A DNA stretch of 64,000 nt from Myxococcales bacterium. Lineage in GTDB: Bacteria > Myxococcota_A > UBA9160 > UBA4427. Position numbers and translations under genes: made by a program. Location: positions 1 through 64,000 of the forward strand of contig JADFNE010000011.1 in NCBI GenBank assembly GCA_022563535.1. The letters are read 5' to 3'. The notes under the pieces were generated by a model. That model was not told the DNA's origin and searched no databases. It saw nothing but the letters and a program-made list of their open reading frames with translations. Of the stretch, positions 1-15,688 are shown in pieces (position 1 is the first letter of the stretch; each line of letters opens with the position of its first letter).

Positions 1-627
1 GAAGAAGTCCGCCAGCACCCCTTCCTCCTCGCTTGCGTTTTGATCCATTAAGAGCGCGACGTAGCGCCCACGGGCCAGCGCACGGAATAGTCCGAGCGAA
101 GCACCCCCCATGCTGATCGTTTCGAGCCCGGCCCGTTGACGCCAATCCGTGACGATCTTGTCGAGATGCGGGTTTTTGAATCCATGTTGCACCGCGCTCA
201 CGGGAAGCCCTTGATGCGCGAGTGCCGCGGCGCAGAACTCCCACGAGCCAAAATGGGCCGTGACGATCAAGGCGCCGGGCTGGCCCGAGCGCTCTTGTGC
301 CAGCGCGAGATTCTTGCGGCCCTCGATCGAAACCAGGTCGAACAACGCGCCGGTCTTGTCTGCGTGCATCAGGCAAACTTCGGCGAAGCTACGCCCGAGG
401 TTTGCGAAGCTCTCGAGCAAGATCCGATCGCGGGTCTCGCCGCTCTTGTCCGGAAAGGCAAGCGCCAGGTTGATCCGCGCGATCGCAATCCTCGGGCCGC
501 CAAGGCGCGCATAGAAAGAAGCCAGGGCGGCGCACGACTCGCGCGCGACTCTCGGCGGCAGGTTGCCGATTCCGATCAAGAGTGCGCGAAGCGCGACCCC
601 GAGCGCACGATCGAAAAACTCGCGCAT
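1..627 (-). CDS. LpxL/HtrB-like lysophospholipid acyltransferase (C-terminus beyond window)
   Basis: The reading frame is open to the left edge; 209 codons are visible and the C-terminus is missing. The N-terminus has a hydrophobic stretch (ALRALLIGIG) and the body has the family signature AHFGSWE, whose His-x4-Glu is the catalytic pair of LpxL/LpxM/HtrB acyltransferases. A later MDQNA segment fits the family's DQ region. Such enzymes transfer an acyl chain from acyl-ACP to a lipid A precursor or a related lipid at the inner membrane. The start is the ATG at 627, with AGGGAG about 8 bases upstream. It is the last visible gene of the acyl-synthesis operon, 58 bases after folB. The acceptor (lipid A or another lipid) cannot be told from sequence. 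Confidence 0.85.
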   Translation of the reverse strand, partial: MREFFDRALGVALRALLIGIGNLPPRVARESCAALASFYARLGGPRIAIARINLALAFPDKSGETRDRILLESFANLGRSFAEVCLMHADKTGALFDLVSIEGRKNLALAQERSGQPGALIVTAHFGSWEFCAAALAHQGLPVSAVQHGFKNPHLDKIVTDWRQRAGLETISMGGASLGLFRALARGRYVALLMDQNASEEEGVLADFF

Positions 628-685
628 GAACCGCGCTCCCTGCTGGTACCGAGGGGAATGGACGGAACTACGGCACCCAGTATGG

Positions 686-1081
686 TCAACGTTCTTGGGG
701 ATTGCGAAGTCGGGTGATCCGAATTCCCCCCCAGTCGAGCACACCGGCGATCGGCTTCGACTTTCTCACTGTCAATCGCACGCTGTCGATCGGAAAGCTT
801 TCAAACAGCGCATCCGCGATTCGCTCGCCCAGTGCTTCGACGAGCTGATGATCTGGACCGCCCACGACCTTGGCCACCACTTCGTAAATTTCTCCGTAGT
901 CGATGGTTTTTGTGAGATCGTCCGTGCGGCCGGCGCCGCTGAGATCGAAGCCGAGTTCGAGATCCAGTCGTACCGGCCGGCGCATCTTCCGTTCTGCCTC
1001 GGTCACGCCGAGCGAGCATGGAATCTCGATGCCCTCGAGGAGAATGATGTCGCCTGCGCGACCGGTCTGGTGTGCGGACAT
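686..1081 (-). CDS. folB: Dihydroneopterin aldolase
   Basis: A 131-residue protein of the FolB tunnelling fold, which converts 7,8-dihydroneopterin to 6-hydroxymethyl-dihydropterin and glycolaldehyde in folate synthesis. Family features seen are an N-terminal ILLEGIEIPCSLGV, a central TIDYGEIYEVV and a C-terminal VRLTVRKSKPI. An ATG 24 bases further upstream (1105) is possible. I prefer 1081 because GAGG lies 9 bases before it and the upstream ATG has no ribosome binding site. It follows the giant carboxylase by 32 bases in the same direction, so it is probably cotranscribed with the fatty acid genes although folate synthesis is unrelated. Confidence 0.87.
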   Translation of the reverse strand: MSAHQTGRAGDIILLEGIEIPCSLGVTEAERKMRRPVRLDLELGFDLSGAGRTDDLTKTIDYGEIYEVVAKVVGGPDHQLVEALGERIADALFESFPIDSVRLTVRKSKPIAGVLDWGGIRITRLRNPQER

Positions 1082-1113
1082 GGTTTCGATCCTCAAGAAG
1101 ATCATCGAGCGTG

Positions 1114-4100
1114 CTAGTCGAGCATGCTCTGTAGTTCGCGAATCAGTGTTTCTCGCATCGCGCTCGGTTCGATGATGCGTTCGAGCGAACCCACATCTCG
1201 GGCGCGCTCAACGCTGTGGATTTCGTCAAATTCGGCGGCGATCGCGGCTTGCTTCTCCAGGGTGACGTCCGCAATCATCGCATTGAGCGCCTCGCGGGCC
1301 TGCTGGGTCCCATCGCGCCGCAGCACACGCTCGCAACGCACGACGCGCTCGTCCGCGAGGGTACGCACTCGAACATCGCGCGCGAACACCACCTTGGCCG
1401 CGGGTCCCCCGCCGATCACCGACGCATAGGATCCAGAGAGTGCGAACGCGCGCAGCGAATCGTTGAGCTCCTGAGAGAAAACCACGTAGGCGCCACCGTG
1501 GTAGCGCGAGATGACCTGGAAGAGGATTGGGCCCTCGAAATTGACGACCGCGCTCGCGATTTCGGCGCCGTATTCGAGTTGTAGTTTGCGCAGCGATTCG
1601 GGAGAGCCATCGAAACCCGACAAATTGGCGAGCATCACCACAGGCCGCCGGCCGCTCGCGGCTCTGATGGCCCGGGCGACTTTCTTGGAGGACAAGGGGA
1701 ACAGGGTTCCACCGGTCCAGGCTTCGGGTCCGTCAAACGGTCGGTAGCCATCCCGGGGAATGCTGTGGCTTTCAATTCCGATCATCGTGATCGAAATGCC
1801 GCCCAGATGGGCATCCCAGACGATTGCGGTCTCCGCCCCGACCATCTGGCGCCAACGTTCGAGATGACCTCCGTCCTGGTCGATCACCGACGCCATGACC
1901 GAGCGCATATCGAAGGGCCGCTTGCGACCGGGATTGGTCTTGTCGTCGAAGATTTCGCCGACCGTCTTGAAGTCGAACCCTTCTTCGGGTGTCAACGGGA
2001 ACTCGCAGACTGATCGCTCTGTTGGATCGTTGGTGGGGAATGGGCGAACGCGCGTTTCTCCCGGCGCGATGTAGCTATAGCGGTAGTACTCGAACAACGT
2101 CAGGTATGCGTCGGCGAGGTTGCGCGCGTAGTACTGCGCCTGACCATTGGGGCCCATGATGCGTTCGAAGCCCCCGATCGCTTCTTCGTCTTCCGCCGAA
2201 ACCGAGCCCGCCGCCTCGAGGGCCGCGCGACCGGTCAACACCATCGCCGATCTCGGCGTCATGATGAGCGCGCCGCGCGTATTCATCAACATGGTTGCCA
2301 GCGCATCGAAATAGCTCTGGGCTCCGATGTTTATCCCCTGGACGATGAGGTTGATCTCACCGCCACCCTGGGTGAACTGGACAATGCGACGGACCACCCG
2401 GGCAGTGGCGTCGAGGTTCTCGGTTCCACTGTCCATCGCGATCTTGGCCCCGCTCGAAACCGGCACCCATTCGAGCGGAACATTCAGATCATTGGCGAGG
2501 TCGAGGGCGGCAACGAGTCGGTCACACTCGCCGACCGCAAGTGCTCCCATGCCGCGGGTTGGATCCGAAAGCACAAGGACTCGCTTCATCCCCTCTGGCA
2601 TCTTGTCGGTGGGGGTCGAGATCACCCCAAACACCACCGCGGAGACGTTCTGACCCGGAGGGCGCACGACCGCCACGGCCTTGGGTGCCTCCGACCGTGG
2701 GTCGAGCTCGTACTCTTCAAAGCTGCCCCGGGAAGTGCTCGAGATTGTTTTATTTCGACGGCGGGGATGAGGGACATCCTCAGGGACTTCGTCCGAGACG
2801 CCTCGCACATCCGAAGTCAGCATGCTGATGATTTCATACGGGAAAATTTGTCGACGCCGGCGCGCGCTCACCACTTTGCGTTCGTAGTCACCGGCGGGCA
2901 GCAATGGCTCGTCGTGGGGTTCGCGCCAGGAAATTTCCATCTGCGGCCCCGTGTCGGTGAATACGATCTCGATCGGTATCGCGTCCCTGTCGGGGGTGTC
3001 GCGATCGAGCACACTCAAACGGACCGTGACCTTCTCGAGGCCGAGATGCCGGGTCGCGGGCAGCAGACGTCGAGCCAGACGCGCCGCGGTCTCGCGATCG
3101 AGGAAGATCGCGGGTGTCACGGAAACCGCAATGCGATTCCACTGCAGACGGCGCCGGGGATCGCGAGTCTGTAGCACCGTGCGCAAGCTGCGGGCGGCCC
3201 GATGAAAGACCCGGACGAAGGCGGGGATGCGATCTTCAACGTCGGGCGTGACCCCGGGAGCGCGATCCCGTGCGTCGGCGAGCACGAAGATCCGCTCGTC
3301 TCCTTCTTCGTCTCGAGCTCGGCCATAGAAGGTGTAGATCCCCTCCTCGCTGTGTAGACGGTCGAGATCAAAGTTTTTCAGGCGATCGAGGTTGATGCGG
3401 ATCGCCGTTTCCGGATGCAGATCGAGATAGCGGGGATTCAACACGTAACCCGCTCCGTTACTGGACTCAAAAGTTTTGAAGATGTCGTGCCCTGTGTCGT
3501 GGATCAATCCCAAAGTCAACCGACAGGGCATCTCGACCTTGTCCACGTATGCAACCACGCGCTTGACCAGGTTTTCGATTTCGTTTTTGTCCGAAAGCGA
3601 AGCCATGAATTCGATCGAATACGCCATGGACTTCTTGGATTTTGCAAGCACTCGCCGGGTTGCGGCCTGCAGCGCCTCGATGACCGCGATCGGATCGTCG
3701 TCATCGACGGACGAACCCGCGAACACCAAACCGATGTCCGGGTATTCGAAGCACAAGACGCGAAAACCGTCGGACTTCAGAAAGCTGCGATTGATTGGAA
3801 CCGCCGGCGAGTAGACCCGCTGCACGTGGGCCGCCAGGGCGATCTCACGTAAGCTCGGATCCGCTGCCGTGATCCAGTTCCCCACCCGATCGAATACACG
3901 TTTGGCCGCCGCCGCGACTTCGAGCATGACATTGGCCGAGGGCTCGACGGGCCCGGTTTCACTCTTGCGCAAAAACGCTTCGAGATCTTTCGAACGCTGG
4001 TCGGCCTGGCGCTCGACCTCGCGCTTGTCGAACAACACGTAGTTGGCTTCGAGAGCGGCGTCAGAAAGCGTATCGGAGAGGCGACCCCGCATGCGGGTAA

Positions 4101-6756
4101 TTCGAATGAGTGCCCCCGAGAGCTGGGGATCCTTTTCGAAGTCGATGCCCGCTTCCGACAACGCGATCAATTGTCGGATCACCGCCAGAACCAGTCGCAG
4201 GCGCAGCTCGGTCTCGACTTGAGAGGCAAACAGACGCAACACCGCGCGTTCGAGTGCGTCACTGGGGTCGAGTTGATGGACTCCGTAGTGTTCGAGAGCG
4301 CGGCGCAGAAGATCGAGGAACTCCTCGGCGATACCCGCTCCAGACGCCCGCAATCTGCGGATGAACATGCGGAAGCGCGCCGCGTTCGAAGGCCCGAAAT
4401 CCCCGGACAGTGATGCCCGTGGCGCGGTGATGAACATTTCTTCGGTATCGACGAAGGTCGCCAACGCGTAGCGGATCTTCGACATCTGCTCGAGGAATCC
4501 CTTCGAAACTCCCTCTGGGATTGGCGCCTCGAGCAACGCGACCAGGCTTTCGCTGCGCGCGGGGTTCGCGTCAAATCCGAGCACGACACGCCGGACCTCT
4601 TCGAGCACCGCCTGGATCGCGGCCTTGCGCGAGGTACGGTCGGCGTGATCGGCGGTGATCAAATCCGGTTCACCCAGAGGCTTTTCGTCTAGCCGCCTGA
4701 AGAGCAGGGCGAGCGGGTCGATCTGCTCGGGCAGGGTGGCGCGTCGGCTCTTTGTTTCCGTTTCGCCATCGCCATTCGTGGGATCGATTACCAGCAGGAC
4801 ATCGCCAGCGCTCACCTGCTGGCCGGGGCGAACTCTGACTTCGGTTACCACACCCGAGACCGGTGCCTGGAAACCGATCTCCATCTTCATGGCTTCGACC
4901 AGTCCCAGCGCGTCACCCGCCTTGACCTCATCGCCTTCGACCACCTGGATGGAGACCACCATGGCCGGCGTTCCCGCGAGCACTTGTCCGGCGGTCTGCC
5001 AGTCGTAGCGAAAGGGGTGACCGTCGATCTCGATTCGCAGTCTCAGATCCGAAGCGTCGTAGAGAATACGACGCACGCGATCGTCGATCTCGAGTCGCGC
5101 GCGGTTGTCTCCCTCTTCGCGCATGTAGGCACCGACCACACGTCCATCGAGGTGGACCCGATAGCGCCAGGCGCCGGTGGCATAGACCATGGCGCGATAA
5201 CTCTCACCGTCACAACTCACGTCGATCTGTTGACCCCGGGATGCCGGAATTCGCTCGGGGGAAATGCGCGATACGTCTGAATAGAAGTTGAGTCGAGCGG
5301 CGGCGCGGCGGCGCTGGTAGGCCAGGATTGCGGCCACGACCAGTGAATCCTGAGCCAGGGGATCCTGGTCACCCTCGAATGTTTCCTCTGCCTCTTGGCC
5401 GCGGCGGTCGAGCCAGCCGGTATCGACCGCACCGGCGCGATACGCCTTGCTGTCCAGGAGTTCCAGCAGGTAACCCCGATTGGTCGCGCCCCCCTGGATC
5501 ACCAACTCCATGTCCAACAGCGCGCAGACGAGGCGCGCGCGGGCATCGTCGCGATCTTTCCCGACCGCGATCACCTTGGTCACCAGCGAATCAAAGTCGG
5601 GTGGAACCGTACTGCCGGCAACCACGCCGGAATCGATCCGCAGCCCCGAACCCATCGGAGGCTCGAAGCGAACGATCTTTCCCGGTGACGGCAGGAAACC
5701 CTGGTCTGGATCTTCCGCGCACAAGCGGGCTTCGATCGCGACGCCGCGCTCGGCAATCACGAGCGACTTGATCGATTCTCCCCGAGCGATCTTGATCTGA
5801 AGCTGCACCAGATCAATGCCGGTGATCTCTTCGGTGATCCCGTGTTCGACCTGCAAGCGAGGGTTCACCTCGAGAAAGAAAAACTTATCTCCCGCGAGCA
5901 AGAACTCTACGGTTCCGACCCCCGAATAGGAAACATGCGTGACGAGATGCACCGCAGCCCGCTCGATTTCCTTGCGAACCTTTGCGGAGAGATCCGGGGG
6001 CGGTGCTTCTTCGAGCACTTTCTGATGGCGCCGCTGGACCGAGCAGTCGCGAGACCCCACCGCAATGACGTTGCGGTGAAGATCTGCGACGATCTGCACT
6101 TCGATATGGCGACCGTCCTCGATCTTCTTCTCCAAGAAGAGCCGGTCGTCACCAAACGCACCTTTGGCCTCAGAGGCCGCGGAACGGAAGGCTTCGGCGA
6201 TGTCTTCTTCGCGATCTACCATGCGAATGCCACGCCCACCGCCACCCGCAGTCGCCTTGATCACGACTGGGAAGCCGATTCGCTTCGCATGTTCGAGGGC
6301 ATCGTTTTCGTCGCTGAGCACACCGCCGCTCCAGGGCGAGACGGGGACCCCCGCTTCTTCGGCGAGACGCTTTGAAGTGATCTTGTCTCCCAACTCTCGC
6401 ATCGCCAGAGATGTCGGGCCGAGAAAAACCATGCCCGCTTCGGTGACGCGATCAACGAATTCCGGAGATTCGGCGACGAAACCCCAACCGGGCCATACCG
6501 CGTCGGCTTCGACACGTTTGAGCGCCGCAATCAGGCCGTCGTGGTCCAGATAGGCCGCCACAGCCCCCGCGTTGTTCGACAACGCGTAGGCGCGATCGGC
6601 CTGTCGCACAAAGGGTGCATCTCGATCGGGCTCGGTATAGAGGGCGATGACCTCTAGTTCGATTCCCTCTTGCAGGCGCAGACTCTTCACGGCGCGAATG
6701 CACCGGAGCGCAGCTTCTCCGCGATTGACGATGGCGAGTCTTCGGAATTCAGGCAC
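1114..6756 (-). CDS. Single-chain multidomain acyl-CoA carboxylase (BC-BCCP-central-CT)
   Basis: About 1880 residues. An N-terminal biotin carboxylase (about 5-450) shows IVNRGEAALRC, a glycine-rich ATP loop (GGGGRGIRMV), RRHQKVLEEAP and EVNPRLQVEH. A biotinyl domain follows with EAMKMEI and the modified Lys near residue 624. Residues about 690-1370 have no motif I recognise. The carboxyltransferase has an N-half (about 1385-1580, SSGAKIAMDSG) and a C-half (about 1590-1800, LANLSGFDGSP, then GGGPAAKVVF). It should carboxylate acetyl-CoA or another acyl-CoA to give malonyl-type extender units. Most bacteria split these domains among AccA, AccB, AccC and AccD; this order matches eukaryotic ACC. 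I place the start at GTG 6756 (GGAG 9 bases upstream), which overlaps the PPTase gene by 8 bases; a TTG at 6789 is the alternative. Substrate specificity is not determined. Confidence 0.9.
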   Translation of the reverse strand: MPEFRRLAIVNRGEAALRCIRAVKSLRLQEGIELEVIALYTEPDRDAPFVRQADRAYALSNNAGAVAAYLDHDGLIAALKRVEADAVWPGWGFVAESPEFVDRVTEAGMVFLGPTSLAMRELGDKITSKRLAEEAGVPVSPWSGGVLSDENDALEHAKRIGFPVVIKATAGGGGRGIRMVDREEDIAEAFRSAASEAKGAFGDDRLFLEKKIEDGRHIEVQIVADLHRNVIAVGSRDCSVQRRHQKVLEEAPPPDLSAKVRKEIERAAVHLVTHVSYSGVGTVEFLLAGDKFFFLEVNPRLQVEHGITEEITGIDLVQLQIKIARGESIKSLVIAERGVAIEARLCAEDPDQGFLPSPGKIVRFEPPMGSGLRIDSGVVAGSTVPPDFDSLVTKVIAVGKDRDDARARLVCALLDMELVIQGGATNRGYLLELLDSKAYRAGAVDTGWLDRRGQEAEETFEGDQDPLAQDSLVVAAILAYQRRRAAARLNFYSDVSRISPERIPASRGQQIDVSCDGESYRAMVYATGAWRYRVHLDGRVVGAYMREEGDNRARLEIDDRVRRILYDASDLRLRIEIDGHPFRYDWQTAGQVLAGTPAMVVSIQVVEGDEVKAGDALGLVEAMKMEIGFQAPVSGVVTEVRVRPGQQVSAGDVLLVIDPTNGDGETETKSRRATLPEQIDPLALLFRRLDEKPLGEPDLITADHADRTSRKAAIQAVLEEVRRVVLGFDANPARSESLVALLEAPIPEGVSKGFLEQMSKIRYALATFVDTEEMFITAPRASLSGDFGPSNAARFRMFIRRLRASGAGIAEEFLDLLRRALEHYGVHQLDPSDALERAVLRLFASQVETELRLRLVLAVIRQLIALSEAGIDFEKDPQLSGALIRITRMRGRLSDTLSDAALEANYVLFDKREVERQADQRSKDLEAFLRKSETGPVEPSANVMLEVAAAAKRVFDRVGNWITAADPSLREIALAAHVQRVYSPAVPINRSFLKSDGFRVLCFEYPDIGLVFAGSSVDDDDPIAVIEALQAATRRVLAKSKKSMAYSIEFMASLSDKNEIENLVKRVVAYVDKVEMPCRLTLGLIHDTGHDIFKTFESSNGAGYVLNPRYLDLHPETAIRINLDRLKNFDLDRLHSEEGIYTFYGRARDEEGDERIFVLADARDRAPGVTPDVEDRIPAFVRVFHRAARSLRTVLQTRDPRRRLQWNRIAVSVTPAIFLDRETAARLARRLLPATRHLGLEKVTVRLSVLDRDTPDRDAIPIEIVFTDTGPQMEISWREPHDEPLLPAGDYERKVVSARRRRQIFPYEIISMLTSDVRGVSDEVPEDVPHPRRRNKTISSTSRGSFEEYELDPRSEAPKAVAVVRPPGQNVSAVVFGVISTPTDKMPEGMKRVLVLSDPTRGMGALAVGECDRLVAALDLANDLNVPLEWVPVSSGAKIAMDSGTENLDATARVVRRIVQFTQGGGEINLIVQGINIGAQSYFDALATMLMNTRGALIMTPRSAMVLTGRAALEAAGSVSAEDEEAIGGFERIMGPNGQAQYYARNLADAYLTLFEYYRYSYIAPGETRVRPFPTNDPTERSVCEFPLTPEEGFDFKTVGEIFDDKTNPGRKRPFDMRSVMASVIDQDGGHLERWRQMVGAETAIVWDAHLGGISITMIGIESHSIPRDGYRPFDGPEAWTGGTLFPLSSKKVARAIRAASGRRPVVMLANLSGFDGSPESLRKLQLEYGAEIASAVVNFEGPILFQVISRYHGGAYVVFSQELNDSLRAFALSGSYASVIGGGPAAKVVFARDVRVRTLADERVVRCERVLRRDGTQQAREALNAMIADVTLEKQAAIAAEFDEIHSVERARDVGSLERIIEPSAMRETLIRELQSMLD

Positions 6757-7375
6757 CGCGACCTTCTCCTGTGCAACACGCAAAGGCAAGCCAGCTGCCG
6801 TGGTGAGAAAGCGAGACGCTGAGATCTAGCTGCCCCTGGCGATAATAGAGCCTCGGTATCCGATGCGCAGTTTTGCGAATTTCGAGCTGATCCCGCGAGT
6901 AATCGAAACGTCGAGAGATCGCGTCGCAGGCCAGATCGCGTACCGCCCTGCTTTCGCAGTCGGACGTCGCCGCCGAGTCGATTGTATCAATGCCCCAGAG
7001 CACAAGGGCGAAGTCGTTGGGCGCCGGCACCGCGATGGCGTGAATGCGCTCTGGTGTCTCATCAAACTCGACAAAGCAGGTCAGCTTGTCGTGTTGTACC
7101 TGGGTTGGTACCTGGGCGGGGTTCGTCGTGTTGTCTTCATCGCAGTCCACCGCAAATGCTCGCGGCGAGAATACGGTCGAGCTGTCGTACTTGCGCACGA
7201 GCTTGTAGCTCGCTTCCTTGGCGGCCCATAAGCGCCACCGTTGGTGTTCGGACGAGGGTGCGCGGTCGATCGACCGACGTTCGCTCGGACTGAACACCCG
7301 CTCGTCGAACCGGCTCCGATAGCTGGTTGCATCTGAATCGGGGTCGCGAAGATCTACGATGTCATTTCCGACCAT
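6749..7375 (-). CDS. AcpS-like 4'-phosphopantetheinyl transferase
   Basis: A 208-residue protein that should attach the phosphopantetheine arm of CoA to the serine of an acyl carrier protein. It opens with VGNDIVDL (the metal-binding Asp of the family), then has RLWAAKEASYKL (the WAAKEA catalytic segment) and, near the C-terminus, VSLSHHGSWLAFA, which matches the SLSH motif of AcpS-type enzymes. It is longer than AcpS (about 125 residues), with an insertion between the two halves. Its ATG overlaps the end of the acyltransferase gene by 14 bases and its end overlaps the carboxylase start, so it is translationally embedded in the operon. The likely client is the ACP encoded at 8153-8401. Confidence 0.87.
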   Translation of the reverse strand: MVGNDIVDLRDPDSDATSYRSRFDERVFSPSERRSIDRAPSSEHQRWRLWAAKEASYKLVRKYDSSTVFSPRAFAVDCDEDNTTNPAQVPTQVQHDKLTCFVEFDETPERIHAIAVPAPNDFALVLWGIDTIDSAATSDCESRAVRDLACDAISRRFDYSRDQLEIRKTAHRIPRLYYRQGQLDLSVSLSHHGSWLAFACCTGEGRGA

Positions 7376-8126
7376 CGAAATAGGCCTCTTCCATTTTTGA
7401 AAGCCGGGTCACTACCTGGGAAGCAAGATCTCGCGAACGCCGGGCACCCTTGCTGTCGGACTTCGGTTCGAAACATTCCATGCTGATGGAAATACGATCT
7501 CCCATGTTGGGGACGCTGCCCCATGACTCCTGGGTGTCTCCCCGCATGTAAATACAAAGCACTCGGCAACCCGGAGCCGCGGCGATGATGCGCCCCACAC
7601 CCCAGGCGATCGAATCGGAAGTGACTCGACCACTGCGACTTCTTCCGCCTTCCGGAAACAACATCGCGACCTCGCCGCGGTTGAGTAGATGGATCACGCG
7701 AGCGAGCACGATCGCGACTGCTGACCGCTCGCCGCCGCGAGAAATCGGAATACACTTCGCGATGAAGACCAGAATCCGTGTGAGGCCCGTCCGGGCAAAG
7801 TTCTTTCGCTCCGGGGTGTTCCAGGGAAGTTCGTCAAAATGCACCGCATAGCGCCACCACGGCACGATCGCCCAGGAGATGATCATCGAATCAATCAACG
7901 TCAAATGATTGGGGCAGATCAAAAGAGGAGCGTCGGACTCCTCCCTCAGTCTCCGGTATTCAGCCCGCAGAGCGCTGACGTCGGCGATCCGATAGCCCAT
8001 CACGAACCGCAGCATGAATACAAACGGCGGAATCCAAAGCGGACCGATCAGTCGCCCGATTTCTCGTTGGACCGCGTGTCGAATGCGAATTTGGCGAGGA
8101 ACGCTTGGTGGCGTCGAGTTACTCAC
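7362..8126 (-). CDS. PlsC-like 1-acylglycerol-3-phosphate acyltransferase
   Basis: A 254-residue protein of the PlsC/LPLAT family. It has the catalytic NHLTLID (NHx4D) motif near residue 74 and the FPEGGRSRSG motif near residue 155, both standard for acyl transfer to lysophosphatidate or another alcohol. A hydrophobic segment at about 28-45 (LIGPLWIPPFVFMLRFVMGY) suggests membrane association. The start is GTG at 8126. The gene lies 26 bases after the ACP gene and overlaps the PPTase gene, so it probably takes its acyl chain from that ACP. Whether it makes phosphatidate or esterifies a special lipid is unknown. Confidence 0.87.
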   Translation of the reverse strand: MSNSTPPSVPRQIRIRHAVQREIGRLIGPLWIPPFVFMLRFVMGYRIADVSALRAEYRRLREESDAPLLICPNHLTLIDSMIISWAIVPWWRYAVHFDELPWNTPERKNFARTGLTRILVFIAKCIPISRGGERSAVAIVLARVIHLLNRGEVAMLFPEGGRSRSGRVTSDSIAWGVGRIIAAAPGCRVLCIYMRGDTQESWGSVPNMGDRISISMECFEPKSDSKGARRSRDLASQVVTRLSKMEEAYFDGRK

Positions 8127-8152
8127 TCGGTACCCCCCTGGCCGAGAATATT

Positions 8153-8401
8153 TCAGTTCAGCTTGGAGACGATCAGGTTTACCGCGTCGCCGACCGTATT
8201 CACGGTATCGACGTCTTCGTCGTCGATTTCGATGTTGAACTCGTCCTCAAACGCGATCACGACATCCACCAGCCTTGCAGAGTTCACCTTCAGGTCTTCG
8301 AGGATGTTCGTATCCATCGAGACTGCGGCAAGCGCATCCTGGTTCTTCACCCACGGCGTCAGGATTTTCACCACGCCTTCAAGTACTTCCGACTGCTCCA
8401 T
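8153..8401 (-). CDS. Acyl carrier protein with an N-S modification site
   Basis: An 82-residue acidic helical protein with the length and pattern of a type II acyl carrier protein. The phosphopantetheine site reads LKVNSARLVD: the serine is present, but the usual Asp before it (the D of DSL) is Asn and the usual Leu after it is Ala. Helix II and the acidic IDDEDVDTV segment match the family. A good ribosome binding site (AAAGGGGG) lies 5 bases before the ATG. It sits between the FabF-like and acyltransferase genes and 1.1 kb from an AcpS-like gene, so it is likely the operon's own carrier. It is distinct enough from standard AcpP to suggest a dedicated carrier. Confidence 0.88.
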   Translation of the reverse strand: MEQSEVLEGVVKILTPWVKNQDALAAVSMDTNILEDLKVNSARLVDVVIAFEDEFNIEIDDEDVDTVNTVGDAVNLIVSKLN

Positions 8402-8421
8402 GATTTCCCCCTTTGAAACTG

Positions 8422-8466
8422 CTTGTCATCATGCTTGTAACATTACTTGTAAACAACAATTACTTG
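8422..8466 (-). repeat. Four CAAG direct repeats upstream of the ACP gene
   Basis: In the 99-base gap between the FabF-like and ACP genes the minus strand carries four copies of CAAG, in contexts TCAAGTAAT, ACAAGTAAT, ACAAGCATG and ACAAGCAGT. Their spacing is 17, 12 and 12 bases. The stretch is A+T-rich and lies just before the ACP ribosome binding site. It could be a protein or RNA regulatory element, or simply an unstructured leader favouring high ACP translation. Confidence 0.4.
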
Positions 8467-8500
8467 AAAAGGAACAACACTCCAGACCCTGTGCCGGATT

Positions 8501-9772
8501 TCAGTCGTGCCATTTCTTGAGAATCAGACATGCATTGACGTCTCCGAACCCGAAGCCCGCTTTGACCAAGATTTCGAGATTGGACATTTCACCGCCCTGG
8601 TGCGGAATGGACGCTGCGAAGGGCTGAATTTCTGGGTGCACGTCTTCGCAGTTGATCGCCGGCTGCAGAAAACCGCCTTTCAACATCAAAATCGAGGCGA
8701 CGGATTCGATGCCTCCAGCGGCTCCGAGCGCGTGACCTATCAGGGACTTGGTCGCGGTGATCATCGGAAAGTCGTCAGGTGCTCGCGAGAGTCCCCGAGA
8801 CCAGGACGCCATCTCCTTCGGATCTGCCCCGGTTGCGGTGAGGTGACCGTTGATCGCGTCCACCTGACTGCCGTCGATCTTCGAATCGGCGAGTGCGGCT
8901 CGAATGCAGCGCCGGACGCTTTCGGGGTTGGGCGCCGTCATACTGCCGCCACCACGGTGGCCCCCGCAATTGACTGCAGAACCGAGTATCTCGGCGAAGA
9001 CCTCGGCGCCCCGCGCTTCCGCACTTTCGAGGCTCTCGAGCAACACGACCCCGGCTCCCGAGCCGGGTACGAAACCCGCGGCACTTGCACTCATGGGCCG
9101 AGACGCCTTTTCGGGCTCGTCGTTGTACTTGCGAGACAAGACCCGCATCGAGTCGAAGCCCGCCCAGATATAGTGACTTGCGGCTTCGGCTCCGCCGCAG
9201 AGCATGCGTTCGGCGAGTCCCAGGCGAATGCGTTCGTAGCCCATCGAGATGGCCTCGGTTCCGGTACTGCAGGCGCTCGAGTTCGTCGTCACTTGATTGC
9301 CGAGAGCGAGTTGCCCCGAAACCCGGGCTGAAATCCCGCTCGCCATCACCTGCTCTACCGCGGTCGACCCCAGGCGACGCACCTTCTTCTGATTGGTCAG
9401 GGGCACGACCTTTTCTGCCGTCGTGTCCATACCGCCGATGCCCGTGCCCAAGATGGCGCCAGAATCCCAATCAGTATCACTGTCTGGACCGGGAACCTCG
9501 AGGCCCGCACTCGTCCAGGCTTCGATCGACGCCAGGCTCGCATAGCGATGGCTCATGTTCATCGCCATCAGCTCGTCTTCGCCAAAGGTCGCAGCTGCGA
9601 GTTCGTCCACACCGACAGGCGTGCCCGCCACGTGACAGCCAAACTTCGCGTCAGCCATGACTTGCTGAAAGCGAATTCCAGAACGTCCTTTACGCAGGGC
9701 CATTTCGAATTCGCGGACGCCATTGCCGTTCGGGGCAATCACACCGAGTCCTGTGACTACTACTCTCCTCAT
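8501..9772 (-). CDS. Beta-ketoacyl-ACP synthase, FabF/FabB-like
   Basis: A 423-residue thiolase-fold condensing enzyme that extends acyl-ACP with malonyl-ACP. The nucleophilic Cys is in NSSACSTGTEA, the first His in NGHLTATGADP and the second in KSLIGHALGAAG, giving a complete Cys-His-His triad. The first His context differs from the usual HGTGT. The N-terminus RRVVVTGLGVIAPNG is typical. The ATG at 9772 forms an ATGA overlap with the stop of the FabZ-like gene, which fixes the start; an in-frame ATG at 9808 is less likely. With KASIII and the dehydratases it forms the elongation part of the operon. Confidence 0.92.
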   Translation of the reverse strand: MRRVVVTGLGVIAPNGNGVREFEMALRKGRSGIRFQQVMADAKFGCHVAGTPVGVDELAAATFGEDELMAMNMSHRYASLASIEAWTSAGLEVPGPDSDTDWDSGAILGTGIGGMDTTAEKVVPLTNQKKVRRLGSTAVEQVMASGISARVSGQLALGNQVTTNSSACSTGTEAISMGYERIRLGLAERMLCGGAEAASHYIWAGFDSMRVLSRKYNDEPEKASRPMSASAAGFVPGSGAGVVLLESLESAEARGAEVFAEILGSAVNCGGHRGGGSMTAPNPESVRRCIRAALADSKIDGSQVDAINGHLTATGADPKEMASWSRGLSRAPDDFPMITATKSLIGHALGAAGGIESVASILMLKGGFLQPAINCEDVHPEIQPFAASIPHQGGEMSNLEILVKAGFGFGDVNACLILKKWHD

Positions 9773-10242
9773 CTTGGAATTCCCATCCCGGACAGCACAC
9801 CCGAACACACCAGGGTGCCGTCGTCGAGTCTCATTTCGGCTTCGCTGCGGAGCTTCTTGCGACGGAAAAACATCTTGCGTGCCGTTGTCGTCACGCGATC
9901 CCCTGGCTTGACGATTCCCGAAAAATCCACGTTGGCATCCGTGAAAATGGTGAGGAGGTCCTTGACCTCTTCCGCAGAAAATTCAGCGGCGTACAGATAG
10001 ATACCAAATGCCACCACCGCGGCCTGGACCATGGATTCCACCAGGATCACACCGGGGGTTATGGGGTTGCCGGGGAAATGCCCGCGGTAGAAGTCAGCGT
10101 CTTCGCGAAAGGTGTACCGCGCGATGATGTGTTCGCTGTCGATTTCAATGATCTCGTCGATGAAGCGAAACGGTTCTCTTTGGGGAACTCTGGCGAGCAC
10201 CTCTTCATGGGTCAACAGATCAACCACCGTACATGCCCCCAT
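9769..10242 (-). CDS. FabZ-like 3-hydroxyacyl-ACP dehydratase
   Basis: A 157-residue hot-dog-fold protein. The motif YRGHFPGNPITPGVILVES contains the catalytic His and the downstream Glu of FabZ, which removes water from 3-hydroxyacyl-ACP. The C-terminus (MFFRRKKLRSEAEM) resembles FabZ strands. The ATG at 10242 overlaps fabG by 23 bases; a GTG at 10227, after a run of Gs, is an alternative that would shorten the overlap to 8. The operon also carries a FabA-type dehydratase, so two dehydratases with different chain-length or isomerisation roles may work together. Confidence 0.87.
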   Translation of the reverse strand: MGACTVVDLLTHEEVLARVPQREPFRFIDEIIEIDSEHIIARYTFREDADFYRGHFPGNPITPGVILVESMVQAAVVAFGIYLYAAEFSAEEVKDLLTIFTDANVDFSGIVKPGDRVTTTARKMFFRRKKLRSEAEMRLDDGTLVCSGVLSGMGIPR

Positions 10243-10948
10243 TTACATGCACTACGGTGCCGTTGATATAACTTGCCCGGGTCGCGAGAAAGGCAACCAC
10301 GTCCGCAACTTCCGCGGCCGTCCCCATTCGTCCCTGCGGAATCCGCGCGAGAATGCTCTGCTTGACCTCGTCGGGCAAATCATCGGTCATCTCTGTTTCG
10401 ATGAAACCCGGTGCCACTGAATTGACGAGGATGTCACGTCCCGCGAGTTCCTGGGCGAGGGACTTGGTAAACGCGTCGAGACCCGCCTTTACCATCGTAT
10501 ACGGGACCTGTCCGGGATTCCCGGTGTGGCCGACCACGCTCGAAATGTTCACGATGCGGCCCGACCCCTGGCGCAGCATGAAGCGCCGCAAGATCAACTT
10601 CGAGAGATACCAGGTACTCCGAGCCAACGCGGTCACCGAATCGTACTGCTCGAGATTCATCGCGAGTATCGGCGCGTTGACGTTGAAACCGGCGTTGTTC
10701 ACCAGCACATCGACCCGGCCCGCCGTCTGTTTGAGTTCCTTGATCATCCCGTCGATGGCGGTTGAATCGGACAAGTCGGCACGCAGACAAAAACTATCCG
10801 GTAGTTCGGCCAGCAGCTTCTGTGCCTTCTCCTCGCTCGAGCGATAGTGGATACCGACTCGAAAGCCCTCGGCAGCCAACTTCCTGCAACACGCCGCCCC
10901 AATGCCGGTGGCTCCACCGGTCACGAGCGCTACCAGGGCTTCACTCAT
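10220..10948 (-). CDS. fabG: 3-oxoacyl-ACP reductase, FabG-type SDR
   Basis: A 242-residue classical short-chain dehydrogenase. The NADP-binding TGGATGIG, the NNAG motif, the catalytic Ser in NISSVVG and YTMVK (Tyr-x3-Lys) are all present, and the ending NGTVVHVNGGMYGG is typical of FabG. It reduces 3-oxoacyl-ACP to 3-hydroxyacyl-ACP between the condensing and dehydrating steps. Its ATG overlaps the stop of the FabA-like gene by 4 bases (ATGA). Membership of this operon supports a fatty acid role rather than one of the many other SDR functions. Confidence 0.9.
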   Translation of the reverse strand: MSEALVALVTGGATGIGAACCRKLAAEGFRVGIHYRSSEEKAQKLLAELPDSFCLRADLSDSTAIDGMIKELKQTAGRVDVLVNNAGFNVNAPILAMNLEQYDSVTALARSTWYLSKLILRRFMLRQGSGRIVNISSVVGHTGNPGQVPYTMVKAGLDAFTKSLAQELAGRDILVNSVAPGFIETEMTDDLPDEVKQSILARIPQGRMGTAAEVADVVAFLATRASYINGTVVHVNGGMYGG

Positions 10949-11547
10949 CGGTCGTTCCTTCCGCCGTGTGCATTCTCAGAGGAGAGTGGATAGTCGGTAT
11001 AGGCGATGCCGGTAAACGTGCCGACCCGAGCTTTCTTGATCACGTAAATCTCTTCTCCGTCGACCAACACTCGAGCATCGCCCACCACCAGTGATGCTCC
11101 TTGCTTGCTGAGCAGGGTGTAGCGGCGAACGTCGACCTCGTAGCGCACCAACTTGTCGTGGGGGCGAATCTGTCCCAGGAATTCGACTTCCCCCACTCCG
11201 AGGGCGCGACCCGATCCGGGTCCTCCGCGCCAGGCGCAGTAGAAGCCGAGCAACTGCCACACCGCGTCGAGCCCGAGACAGCCGGGCTGAACCGGGTCGC
11301 CGTCGAAATGGCAGTGAAAAAACCAGTCGTCGAGTTTCACATCGCACTCGGCCACGATGCGGCCGCGCGCCTTGTCGGCTTCGATCAAGGTAATTCGCTC
11401 GAACATCATCATCGGCGGAGCTGGCAGCCGGGTTCGCAGAGTTTCGGGTGGATCCTTCACCAGACGACCGTATGCAAAGGCGAGTAACTCGTCCTTTGAA
11501 AAATGATCGCGGCCCATGAAGGCCTCGTAGGTCAGTTGGCCATTCAC
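10945..11547 (-). CDS. FabA-like 3-hydroxydecanoyl-ACP dehydratase/isomerase
   Basis: About 200 residues. The FabA signature is nearly intact: WFFHCHFDGDPVQPGCLGLDAVWQL, with the catalytic His in CHF and the Asp in GLDAVWQL, plus ALGVGEVEFLGQI. FabA dehydrates 3-hydroxyacyl-ACP and isomerises the trans-2 bond to cis-3, the entry to unsaturated fatty acids in anaerobic synthesis. I place the start at GTG 11547, which overlaps the KASIII stop (GTGA) and has AGGGG 8 bases upstream; an internal ATG at residue 11 would align with the E. coli start. Isomerase activity is inferred from resemblance to FabA rather than FabZ. Confidence 0.9.
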   Translation of the reverse strand: MNGQLTYEAFMGRDHFSKDELLAFAYGRLVKDPPETLRTRLPAPPMMMFERITLIEADKARGRIVAECDVKLDDWFFHCHFDGDPVQPGCLGLDAVWQLLGFYCAWRGGPGSGRALGVGEVEFLGQIRPHDKLVRYEVDVRRYTLLSKQGASLVVGDARVLVDGEEIYVIKKARVGTFTGIAYTDYPLSSENAHGGRNDR

Positions 11548-12548
11548 GCGTTCGTCCCCTCGGACATGCGTACCAGATAGCGTCCCCAGGTCAGGCCCGA
11601 GCCAACACCGACAAGTGCAATGTCGTCTTTGGGAAGCCACTTGTCCCAATTCATGGAAACCACCGAAACTCCACTGGCGGCACCGGTGTTGCCGTACCAG
11701 TCCACGTTGAAGTGATGAAACTCTTCCTTAATGTCGCACTTGCGACAGACGTTTTCGAGCATCCGCAGATTCGCTTGATGGCCGACAAAGTGGAAGTTGC
11801 GGTCATTTGCGACAAATTCGCTCTGGAGCTGTTGCAAGCCGGAGATCGTCCTCTTGATGGCAAACAGCTGAACCGAGCGACCTTCTTGATCGAAGAATCC
11901 GAGACGCGGGATGACGACCTTGCCGTGCCCCGAAGGATTTGATTCGAGGTTGCTTCCCGTGATCGTCGCGCGCCCGGGAACCCGCGCCGAGATCACCGCG
12001 GCAGCCGCAGCGTCTCCCCACAAAACGGCGCTGTTTCGATCGCTGTAGTCGACCGTGCGCGTCATCACCTCACTCGCCACGACGAGAACAAACTCCGGAA
12101 GCTTCTGCGGATCCATCATCGAAATCACCTGGATCGCAGCAAAGAAGCTCGTACAAGCGGATGCGATGTCCAGACATGGGGCTTCGATGCCCAGCAGATT
12201 TGCCATGCGCGCGGATTCGGCGGGGATCGCAAAATCTGGTGCGCAGCCACCCGCAATCACCATCCCAATCTGGTCGGCGCCAACCCCTGCCCGTTCCATC
12301 GCCATCGCGGCGGCGCGCCGCCCCATTTCGGCGTTCGAATACTCGGCGGCCTCCATCCCGACCCTGGGGTCCCGGTTGAGGGTGTCACGGAGATAGTCCA
12401 GCGGGAGCGAGGTCCGGCGGGAGCGAATTCCCACTCTATCCATGATCCAATCCTCGTTGGTCCCAATGTCCAGGGATTCGAGAAATTGATTGGTGATTTC
12501 GTTTTCTGGATGGAAATGACCCAATCCATGTAGATAGAGACTCAACAA
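11544..12548 (-). CDS. 3-oxoacyl-ACP synthase III-like (KASIII/FabH family)
   Basis: A 334-residue thiolase-fold enzyme with the KASIII triad: Cys in DIASACTSFF, His in FVGHQANLRML and Asn in WYGNTGAASG. KASIII enzymes start chains by condensing an acyl-CoA with malonyl-ACP. The N-terminal half has an extended insert (residues about 45-70), so the primer may differ from acetyl-CoA. The start is TTG at 12548 or 12545, with GGAG 4 or 7 bases upstream. It is the first gene of the operon running left to the window edge. It could prime ordinary fatty acids or a dedicated chain. Confidence 0.88.
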   Translation of the reverse strand: MLSLYLHGLGHFHPENEITNQFLESLDIGTNEDWIMDRVGIRSRRTSLPLDYLRDTLNRDPRVGMEAAEYSNAEMGRRAAAMAMERAGVGADQIGMVIAGGCAPDFAIPAESARMANLLGIEAPCLDIASACTSFFAAIQVISMMDPQKLPEFVLVVASEVMTRTVDYSDRNSAVLWGDAAAAAVISARVPGRATITGSNLESNPSGHGKVVIPRLGFFDQEGRSVQLFAIKRTISGLQQLQSEFVANDRNFHFVGHQANLRMLENVCRKCDIKEEFHHFNVDWYGNTGAASGVSVVSMNWDKWLPKDDIALVGVGSGLTWGRYLVRMSEGTNA

Positions 12549-12874
12549 CTTACTCCAGCGACCCCCTAGAGGGCTCGCTACGACTTTGGTCCGTAGGTGG
12601 ACTCAGAGTCACGGTTTTTCAACTACGGGGAGTATCCACGCCATGTTTCAGTGGCTCAGCGAACTCAGAAGCTAGCCAGATAATTAGACAGGGCTTCGCC
12701 ATTCACGTGCAAAACCCTGGGGCAACAAACCGTTTGTATAGTGGGCGATGCGGAACGAACCCCTCCGCCGACCCGCTCGTCGCGGGTGTTCGGGGGAGCC
12801 TACCACCACCGACCGGAAATTTCCTGTGTCCCCGGGGGATAATTGATCAGCGGGGCGAAGAGCAAGGGAAATCC
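12549..12874. other. Intergenic region upstream of the acyl-synthesis operon
   Basis: These 326 bases separate the DinG-like gene from KASIII and should hold the promoter of the acyl-synthesis operon. I see no convincing -35/-10 pair; TTGAAA on the minus strand near 12617 lacks a good partner. There are two short inverted repeats: GACTC-A-GAGTC near 12600-12610, and ACCCGC-tcgtc-GCGGGT near 12774-12790, which could be a weak terminator hairpin for the DinG-like gene but has no T-run. No gene is recognisable. Confidence 0.5.
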
Positions 12875-15688
12875 TCAAAGGGGCGAGCCTTGGCCCAATT
12901 TGATCTCCGCCAGCACCGACGGGAGCTGGTGGCGCCGAATCGCCCGGATTTTTGTGCCCCTGGGGAAAGCGTCTTTCAGGCGCCGAAAGTAGGCTCGGTC
13001 GGTTCGCGCATCCACGATCACCGTGATCCCGCGGTCAGTTTCGCTGCGGATCAAACGGCCGGACATTTGCTTGAGGTGCAGCAGCATTTTCCCCAGCGAC
13101 GCCCGACTGAACGGGTCCCCGCCCGATTCTCGAATCCGAAGCTCCCGCCGCTTGCGCAGTTCAGTCGGGACCTCGAACGGCAGCTTTTCGATCACGACCG
13201 CTTGCAACACGTCACCGGGGAGGTCGAGTCCCTGCCAGAAGGTTCGAGCCCCGAGCAGCACGGCCCCACTCCGGGACTTGGCAAAGCGCTCCACCAGCGC
13301 CGCCGGGTCGTCGACTGCGTAACGCGGCGTGAGGATTTCGATGCCCGTTCCTTCGAGAGCCGTATCGAGCAACGCCGCGACCTCGTGCATACGCTTCAGG
13401 CTGGTGAACAAACCCAAGGTCCGCCCGGTGAGTTCTTTGGCCAGGACCGCGAGCACCGCGGCAGTTTCGGAGGTCGTATCCTCGACCGGCTTGAGTGCCA
13501 CGACGCGCATGTTCTCGCCATAGGGAAACGGGCTTTCGACCGCGACTCGCTGGATCTTTTCACCTCCGCGTTCATCGATTTCGAGTTCTCCGAGGGACGC
13601 GAAAGCATCTCCAGCGATGAAGAGGCTGGCGGATACCGCTGCGAACGAATCGAGTGGATCCATGAAGCTCGCATGATATGAATCCGCTGGCGAGACGGGG
13701 CGGATCAGCAGGCGAAAGCGTTGTTGCGAACGTCCGAGCGACTCGAAAGACGAAACGTAATCCGGTGATCCCGCAAAGGCGGTGCGCAGCCCGTCGGCGG
13801 CGTCGCGAAGCTCGCCGATTGCGCGCTTGACCGGATCGTCGTCGTCGTCGCCACGATCTTCGTTTTTCGCGGGAGAGTGAAAGGCGTAGTCCGCAGCGTC
13901 GCGTTGCACCGCGAGGAGATCGGCTTGCCGGGCGATGCCGTCGATGTGCTGCGCCGCGAGCCGGGCAAACTCCGCGGCCTCCGGGTAGATGCGGTCGGGA
14001 TCTAGCGGCAGCTGCAACTCTCCATACTCGCTTGCGAGTCCCGTCACGGATTTTCCCAGGCCAATGAAATCGAGATCGATCTCGCGACGCCAGGCCACGA
14101 CATCGACCGCGACTTGCTTTCGCAAGCGAAGCGGCAGAAGCGGCTCTTCGCCCCGATCTGAGGGGCGCCCGAAAATTTCGTCAATGCGTTCCAGCACTTC
14201 GTCGGGGCTGATCAGTTGGGCGTATACGTCGTCCGCAACTCCCGCGACTTCGTGGGCTTCGTCCGCGACTACATGCGAAAATGTCGGGTAGTCGTTGGGC
14301 CAGCGAAGCAGGAGATCGTGATTTGCGACCACCAGATCCGCGCGGGACAGCGCAGCGCGCCGGGCGCCGAAGGGACATCCCGGCGTCTTGCCACACTCCT
14401 CGCGGCTGCAGTGTTCGGACCGCCTCGCCACCGACCGCGACTTCAGTTCGCGCAAGTTGGGATAGCGATGCAACAGGGCCGCGGGGAGATCGCCAATCTC
14501 GGCGTAGGGTCGCGTGCGCGCGCAAGCCAACAGGACCGCATAGGCGTAACGCTCTTCCGGGAATGAACCCATCTCGCGCCCTTCGTCCAATACGTCGGTC
14601 AGCCGACGTTCGCACGCATAGTTCCCGCGGCCCTTGATTGAAAGCGCGCGCAACTCCGGATAGCCGAAAAATCGCGCGGCCGCCGCAATGTCCTTGCGCA
14701 ACAACTGGTCCTGGAGGAGTTTCGTGCGCGTCGAGATCACCACCGGCCCGCGCTCTCCAGTCCTGCGCCGCGAAAGCGCAAAGGGAATTGCCGCGGCGAG
14801 GTAAGCGAGTGACTTCCCGACACCGGTTCCGCCTTCCAGGAGCAGCGTGCCGCAGCTTTCGAAGTTGCGAACGAAGTGGCGCGCGAGTTCGATCTGTTCC
14901 TTGCGAACCCGGTAGCCCGGGAAGTACTCCCGCCCCCGCGCTTCGTCCGCCAGCACACTGGCGATCGCGTCTTCGTCGAAAGGAACGGGTTCGTGGTTCG
15001 ACGGCGCGATCTGGATGAACTGATCGGGTGGGAGGTCTGGATCCGTGATCAAGGGACCACGCAACAAACGCAACCAGGGCGAGTCGGGTGCGTACCGATC
15101 CAGGGCGCGGCGCGCTACCAGGTAACGTTCCTCTCCCCGCTCTGCGCCGGACGCAATCGCGGCCAGCACTCGCCCGGTGTCGAGGGCGTCGGCGAGGGCG
15201 CGATGACGTTCTTCGCGCTCGAGCAACAAGCGAGTAAAGGAAGCCAAGCGCAGATCGGGCGCGTCTGGATGGGTCAGCGCAAGCAGGTCCTGGGTGTCGA
15301 GGAAGACAGCGTTCTTGAACTCTTTCGAGACGTAGCGCGTGAGGAAGCTGCGCTCGAACTCCGCGTTGTGTGCGATCAACACCCTGCCTTCGAGGGCGGC
15401 GGCTACGCGATAGCGAACTTCATTGAGACGCTTTGCTGCTTCGACGTCGCGATCTCGCAAACCCGTGAGACGTCGAATTTCGCTCGGCAGGGGCAGTCGC
15501 GGGCGAATTAGTCCGTCGAGCGCACGAACCTCGACTCTCGCCAGCGGAGCGGCCTCGGAGATCCCTCCGAACAGGTTCTGCGGATCGCTACCCGAGCCGG
15601 CAAGATCGAAAGTGAGGACACCGAACTCGAGAATCTCCGCCGACGAATCCGCGGGCAGGCCCGTGGTTTCGAGATCGACGATCGCCAT
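12875..15688 (-). CDS. DnaQ-like exonuclease fused to DinG/XPD-type helicase
   Basis: A 937-residue two-domain protein. Residues 1-180 are a DEDDh exonuclease (VDLETTGL, AHNAEFE, HRALADALD). The rest is a superfamily 2 DinG helicase with Walker A EGGTGVGKSLAY, the DEAH box (VVADEAHEVA) and a cysteine set (CERRL, then SEHCSREECGKTPGCPFG) that should bind a 4Fe-4S cluster. Near the end, ARTFWQGLDLPG and QMSGRLIRSETDRG match helicase motifs V and VI. Such fusions unwind and trim DNA intermediates in repair. The start MAIVDLETTG is abrupt; the frame stays open about 50 codons upstream without an ATG, GTG or TTG, so the start is slightly uncertain. It lies 124 bases after the ThDP enzyme gene. Confidence 0.92.
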   Translation of the reverse strand: MAIVDLETTGLPADSSAEILEFGVLTFDLAGSGSDPQNLFGGISEAAPLARVEVRALDGLIRPRLPLPSEIRRLTGLRDRDVEAAKRLNEVRYRVAAALEGRVLIAHNAEFERSFLTRYVSKEFKNAVFLDTQDLLALTHPDAPDLRLASFTRLLLEREERHRALADALDTGRVLAAIASGAERGEERYLVARRALDRYAPDSPWLRLLRGPLITDPDLPPDQFIQIAPSNHEPVPFDEDAIASVLADEARGREYFPGYRVRKEQIELARHFVRNFESCGTLLLEGGTGVGKSLAYLAAAIPFALSRRRTGERGPVVISTRTKLLQDQLLRKDIAAAARFFGYPELRALSIKGRGNYACERRLTDVLDEGREMGSFPEERYAYAVLLACARTRPYAEIGDLPAALLHRYPNLRELKSRSVARRSEHCSREECGKTPGCPFGARRAALSRADLVVANHDLLLRWPNDYPTFSHVVADEAHEVAGVADDVYAQLISPDEVLERIDEIFGRPSDRGEEPLLPLRLRKQVAVDVVAWRREIDLDFIGLGKSVTGLASEYGELQLPLDPDRIYPEAAEFARLAAQHIDGIARQADLLAVQRDAADYAFHSPAKNEDRGDDDDDPVKRAIGELRDAADGLRTAFAGSPDYVSSFESLGRSQQRFRLLIRPVSPADSYHASFMDPLDSFAAVSASLFIAGDAFASLGELEIDERGGEKIQRVAVESPFPYGENMRVVALKPVEDTTSETAAVLAVLAKELTGRTLGLFTSLKRMHEVAALLDTALEGTGIEILTPRYAVDDPAALVERFAKSRSGAVLLGARTFWQGLDLPGDVLQAVVIEKLPFEVPTELRKRRELRIRESGGDPFSRASLGKMLLHLKQMSGRLIRSETDRGITVIVDARTDRAYFRRLKDAFPRGTKIRAIRRHQLPSVLAEIKLGQGSPL

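Follow-up and report, generated by a model that had tools for sequence, protein, structure and literature searches.

A probable eukaryote-style single-chain acetyl-CoA carboxylase at the end of a fatty acid synthesis operon in Myxococcota

The window studied here is a stretch of 64,000 nucleotides from a member of the Myxococcota. It contains a gene for one long protein chain that carries the parts of an acetyl-CoA carboxylase (ACC) in the order found in eukaryotes. We put the probability at roughly 85% that this single-chain ACC provides the malonyl-CoA used by the type II fatty acid synthase (FAS) encoded next to it, and that it does so in place of AccABCD.

In most bacteria ACC is AccABCD, made as four separate proteins. 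The reaction and the pathway role would be the same, whereas here there is a single chain instead of four subunits. Eukaryotic ACC is a rate-limiting enzyme, and a target of drugs and herbicides. To our knowledge, its only bacterial counterpart described so far is actinobacterial. This type of enzyme has been known in bacteria since 2019, and the window protein belongs to it. What is new is how far the family spreads beyond Actinobacteria, how it is wired into operons, that it and AccA largely exclude each other, and that the eukaryotes are its sister.

The original prediction, made from the DNA letters, had proposed a chain of 1880 residues. Its coordinates are right, and the strand is the minus strand (Table 1); the plus strand frame of the same stretch is broken by stops. 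Homologues align from end to end at 38-78% identity, which rules out a chance or mis-fused open reading frame. Pfam places Biotin_carb_N, CPSase_L_D2 and Biotin_carb_C at residues 4-450, Biotin_lipoyl at residues 600-657 (with the EAMKM motif) and Carboxyl_trans at residues 1389-1876. The order is biotin carboxylase (BC), biotinyl domain with Lys624, central region and carboxyltransferase (CT). The claimed domain order, length and division of the CT into two parts all hold. The original prediction had recognised no motif in the central region, but a curated one is there: ACC_central (PF08326) scores 31.5 bits, above the cut-off of 23.2. The BC catalytic residues K125, K167, H217, E219, E284, E296, N298, R300 and R344 are all present. 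Together with the biotin Lys624 they are conserved in 68-69 of 69 homologous rows.

Table 1. Features of the ACC gene and its neighbours. Positions refer to the window, except in the last three rows, which refer to locus L119.
Feature	Position	Strand	Basis or remark
Single-chain acetyl-CoA carboxylase, 1880 aa, 207.4 kDa	1114..6756	-	GTG start 6756, stop 1114
Biotin carboxylase domain, residues 4-455	5392..6747	-	Pfam and alignment
Linker / presumed BT-like region, residues 456-589	4990..5391	-	position only; no Pfam BT match
Biotinyl (BCCP) domain, residues 590-660, EAMKM, biotin Lys624 (codon 4885-4887)	4777..4989	-	Pfam and alignment
Central region, residues 686-1345, predicted ACC AC1-AC5 fold	2722..4701	-	Pfam, profile, model
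Carboxyltransferase N and C domains, residues 1346-1880	1117..2721	-	Pfam, profile, tree
4'-Phosphopantetheinyl transferase (PPTase)	6749..7375	-	overlaps ACC start by 8 bases
PlsC-type acyltransferase	7362..8126	-	domain match
Acyl carrier protein (ACP), 82 aa	8153..8401	-	PP-binding 28.9 bits
FabF/FabB-type beta-ketoacyl-ACP synthase	8501..9808	-	domain match
FabZ-like dehydratase	9769..10242	-	domain match
FabG-type ketoacyl-ACP reductase	10220..10948	-	domain match
FabA-type dehydratase/isomerase	10945..11649	-	domain match
FabH-type ketoacyl-ACP synthase III	11544..12548	-	sole strong FabH match in genome
FolB dihydroneopterin aldolase	686..1105	-	8 bases past ACC stop
PfaA-like megasynthase (L119)	3-7859
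Single-chain ACC (L119)	7907-13498
PPTase (L119)	13552-14322

Searched against the PDB, a profile of the central region built with 24 homologues picks out eukaryotic ACCs alone. Chaetomium matches at 1.1e-21, yeast at 1.4e-18 and human at 3.1e-16; the weakest eukaryotic ACC match is around 1e-11, and the lone other row has an E-value of 0.37. An AlphaFold2 model of the region, from 67 input sequences, has a mean pLDDT of 89.2 and a pTM of 0.87. Searching with this model in Foldseek gives 31 matches at E<0.001, every one of them eukaryotic ACC. The comparison with the AC1-AC5 domains of yeast ACC, which the original prediction had suggested, was made with VIA-align. Residues 793-1522 of the yeast holoenzyme (5csl) align with Z 30.2 over 518 residues, with an rmsd of 5.3 A that is large because the region is multi-domain and mobile, as is to be expected. 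Among unrelated folds the best is an importin-beta (HEAT-repeat) chain, with Z 11.2. The lack of an ACC-like fold, named as a refuting outcome, did not show up in Foldseek or VIA-align; by its model, the region is a genuine ACC central domain with the AC1-AC5 fold.

A profile built from the CT alone scores 20 eukaryotic ACC chains at 9e-32 to 9e-23, and only then comes the best PCC-type chain, at 5e-13. In a maximum likelihood tree of 53 CTs, eukaryotic ACC and the bacterial single-chain family form one clade with support 100/100, where the eukaryotic rows are fragments taken out of HMMER alignments and long branches connect the groups. Within it the bacterial family again forms a clade (100/100), and the eukaryotes (100/99; yeast, human and Chaetomium) are its sister. 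This means that the CT of the window protein does not lie inside the eukaryotic clade of this tree; the two are separate sister groups. Outside the joint clade lie the LCC-like CT, the CTs of MCC and PCC type and the two further CTs encoded in the window's genome. The tree leaves out L182, which is in the wrong frame, and two other very long rows; the topology is the same with them. Constraining the eukaryotes to group with Actinobacteria is rejected (p 0.017). The tree puts eukaryotic ACC as sister to the whole bacterial family, and not nested in Actinobacteria.

Aligned with VIA-align, the CT model cannot tell eukaryotic ACC apart from AccD6 or PCC (Z 36 to 30). The kinship of the CT is therefore based on Foldseek, the profile and the tree. 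The BC and CT phylogeny that had been proposed as a check groups the CT with eukaryotic ACC; the grouping of the window BC with eukaryotic BC has a low support of 40/43. The other outcome named as damaging, a grouping with bacterial LCC enzymes only, did not occur in the CT tree.

The bacterial and eukaryotic CTs do differ markedly at one position. Yeast Arg1954 (in NWRGFSGG) is an invariant Ser (in NLSGFDG) in 69 of 69 bacterial rows, corresponding to Ser1713 of the window protein, and Arg1731 of the eukaryotic CT is apparently not conserved in the alignment either. Both arginines have a role in the eukaryotic CT; the alignment positions were computed, and the numbering of Arg1954 agrees with the yeast residue range from the CT structure alignment. 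It may be that CT chemistry or substrate choice differs in detail from eukaryotic ACC. Yeast Acc1 and human ACC1/ACC2 share with the window protein the domain order, the AC1-AC5 fold (Z 28-30) and the sister position of the CT, but they have around 2200-2400 residues versus 1880, and form a separate clade.

The closest characterised relative in type is SACE_4237 of Saccharopolyspora, a single-chain multidomain ACC of around 200 kDa that is an essential homodimer (Livieri et al. 2019, PMC6491548). It complements E. coli accB(ts), and its kcat/Km is 0.85 for acetyl-CoA and 0.52 for propionyl-CoA, while it is inactive on palmitoyl-CoA (PMC6491548). The window protein has the same BC-BCCP-central-CT chain, a similar mass and a CT in the same clade. 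The link to SACE_4237 itself runs through homologues in its taxonomic family, the Pseudonocardiaceae, to which Saccharomonospora and Saccharopolyspora erythraea belong; 34 of 40 genomes of that family hold a single-chain ACC. Actinobacterial homologues (Pseudonocardiaceae, Micromonosporaceae, Rhodococcus) are 38-41% identical over central region and CT, but over the central region only around 22-25%. Unlike the myxococcotal gene, the actinobacterial genes examined have no fabH-A-G-Z-F-ACP-plsC-PPTase operon around them.

Bacterial long-chain acyl-CoA carboxylase (LCC) also has BC, BCCP and CT in a single chain, but it has a different domain order, no AC1-AC5 region and is a hexamer (PMC6491548). 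Domain order, central fold and CT tree, with one LCC-like sequence tested, rule out that the window protein is such an enzyme.

Scanning one genome per GTDB species found at least 541 confirmed relatives of the window protein. The best 80 of these at least 541 are mostly from Myxococcota, Acidobacteriota and Actinomycetota, and include Amycolatopsis, Saccharomonospora, Micromonospora and Rhodococcus. Literature searches for members in Myxococcota or Acidobacteriota found only Livieri et al. 2019, and the families named there for multidomain ACC are actinobacterial only (PMC6491548).

The window's genome is 97.9% complete. It has three Carboxyl_trans genes: the single-chain ACC, an MCC-type pair (on contig C36) and a divergent pair (on C6). 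Apart from the single-chain ACC, only the MCC-type alpha chain gives a strong BC match. The CT of the C36 pair falls among methylcrotonyl-type CTs, and an MCC BT domain is present in the alpha chain of that pair. The divergent carboxylase (L043:1602-7185, on G000:C6) consists of a CT of 552 aa and a BC-like chain of 919 aa with a disrupted BC and an EVMKM biotin motif, followed by a CaiB-type CoA-transferase. Targeted searches found no AccA/AccD-like gene in this genome; the AccA matches are weak cross-hits with an E-value of 1e-7, where a true AccA lies below 1e-17.

Across 284 draft genomes of the phylum, 101 have only the single-chain ACC, 90 have only AccA, 8 have both and 85 have neither (Fisher odds ratio 0.075, p 8e-16, with kinship ignored). 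From the window's own family 21 genomes were sampled; every one has the single-chain ACC, and none has AccA. The remainder of its order has it in 27 of 32 genomes, also with no AccA. Pfam PF08326 alone finds 41 genomes versus 109 by the family profile, and so underestimates the family. In the window's organism the single-chain ACC most likely replaces the usual AccABCD complex, as far as gene content can tell. Within the Myxococcota, it largely excludes AccA. This also serves as a warning for annotation, as genomes scored as lacking accABCD may still have an ACC.

The ACC gene closes a fabH-A-G-Z-F-ACP-plsC-PPTase operon, in which all genes share one strand and either overlap or lie a short distance apart. 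This order is kept in most Myxococcota loci of the window protein's clade, and the ACP is present in 20 of them. The operon includes neither FabD (malonyl-CoA:ACP transferase) nor an enoyl reductase. The FolB gene that follows would at most be co-transcribed. The ACP gene, which the original prediction had not listed in its finding, lies in the space that separates the FabF-like gene from the acyltransferase gene, and its product shows a conserved NSARL in place of the DSL of canonical ACPs.

Acidobacteriota and some other bins have a different layout. There, the single-chain ACC has a PfaA-like KS-AT-ACP-KR-DH megasynthase on one side and a PPTase on the other, with hardly any gaps, as in L119 (Table 1). 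The same layout is found at L114, L115, L117, L123-L127, L134, L137, L139, L146, L152 and L160. This is another type of lipid-synthase operon with a single-chain ACC at its core.

Architecture, fold, CT ancestry, intact residues, operon conservation and the missing AccA/AccD matches are all computed. Catalysis, dimer state, substrate and essentiality are carried over from SACE_4237. On that footing, the enzyme would be a homo-oligomer (by homology a homodimer) of the eukaryote/actinobacterial multidomain type. The BC domain would use ATP and bicarbonate to carboxylate the biotin on Lys624. The biotinyl domain would then swing across the AC1-AC5 scaffold and carry the carboxyl group to the CT dimer, which would transfer it to acetyl-CoA, and probably to propionyl-CoA too. 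The resulting malonyl-CoA would feed the type II FAS encoded directly upstream (ACP, PPTase, FabH, FabA, FabG, FabZ, FabF and the PlsC-type acyltransferase).

The original prediction had offered two functions, malonyl-CoA supply for the operon or carboxylation of a longer acyl-CoA. The first has gained more from the analysis, given the FAS II context and the lack of any AccABCD found. The second, in which a broad or longer-chain carboxylase prefers propionyl-CoA or longer and gives branched extender or starter units to the operon, seems unlikely. SACE_4237 does take propionyl-CoA nearly as well as acetyl-CoA, and the family-wide Ser at Arg1954 means a CT pocket unlike that of yeast and human ACC. 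However, SACE_4237 leaves palmitoyl-CoA alone, the LCC-like CT lies outside the clade of the window CT, and with no other recognised ACC in the genome, acetyl-CoA carboxylation is needed from somewhere. That somewhere might be the C36 or C6 pair, if the window protein were a pseudo-enzyme or regulatory scaffold. Such loss of function does occur in the family, in L160, where the BC site is decayed. We nevertheless think this very improbable: the window protein has its checked BC residues and biotin Lys intact, the C36 pair is methylcrotonyl-type by CT tree and BT domain, and the C6 pair has its divergent BC and EVMKM beside a CaiB-type CoA-transferase.

As to origin, the eukaryote-like architecture might bring to mind a recent horizontal acquisition from a eukaryote, or eukaryotic DNA contaminating the assembly, and one related metagenome-assembled genome (MAG) does have a true algal contaminant ACC contig. 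Yet the window gene has no introns, is part of a bacterial fab operon and matches its surroundings with 61% GC, and homologues of 40-78% identity in hundreds of bacteria form one clade without eukaryotes (100/100). This leaves hardly any chance for either version. Recent transfer is refuted; an ancient one, in either direction, may have taken place.

More tentatively, and with the odds against it, single-chain ACC could have been invented long ago in bacteria and be most diverse in Myxococcota and Acidobacteriota, not Actinobacteria. It would be a dedicated malonyl-CoA module of lipid synthase operons, be it type II FAS or, in Acidobacteriota, the PfaA-like megasynthase. Eukaryotic cytosolic ACC would then descend from this family, or share a direct bacterial ancestor with it. 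If true, the 'actinobacterial origin' of eukaryotic ACC proposed in 2019 would be wrong. The AC1-AC5 scaffold, once deemed eukaryotic, is common in Myxococcota and Acidobacteriota, in lipid-synthesis operons. Dating and placing the ACC fusion needs wider sampling, and the family offers smaller bacterial models of the eukaryotic holoenzyme.

Some unusual sequences also came up. The algal contaminant, L065 (G250:C182), has the strongest PF08326 match in the phylum, and was excluded because it is an intron-bearing algal-type ACC contig in a Myxococcota MAG. L160, from a genome that has kept AccA (G062), has CQVDVQ and DASVQRRQRR in its decayed BC active site; this is possibly a loss of BC function, or subfunctionalisation. 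Six genomes (G006, G017, G182, G187, G207 and G259) each have two single-chain ACC paralogues. Where both were read, one is around 55% and the other around 41% identical to the window protein. Finally, genomes of the same class (f11; G085, G099, G130, G139, G144, G154 and G255) have shorter members of around 1700 aa. Their profile match is interrupted midway through the central region, with positions around 222-406 missing, and they perhaps represent a natural minimal central domain.
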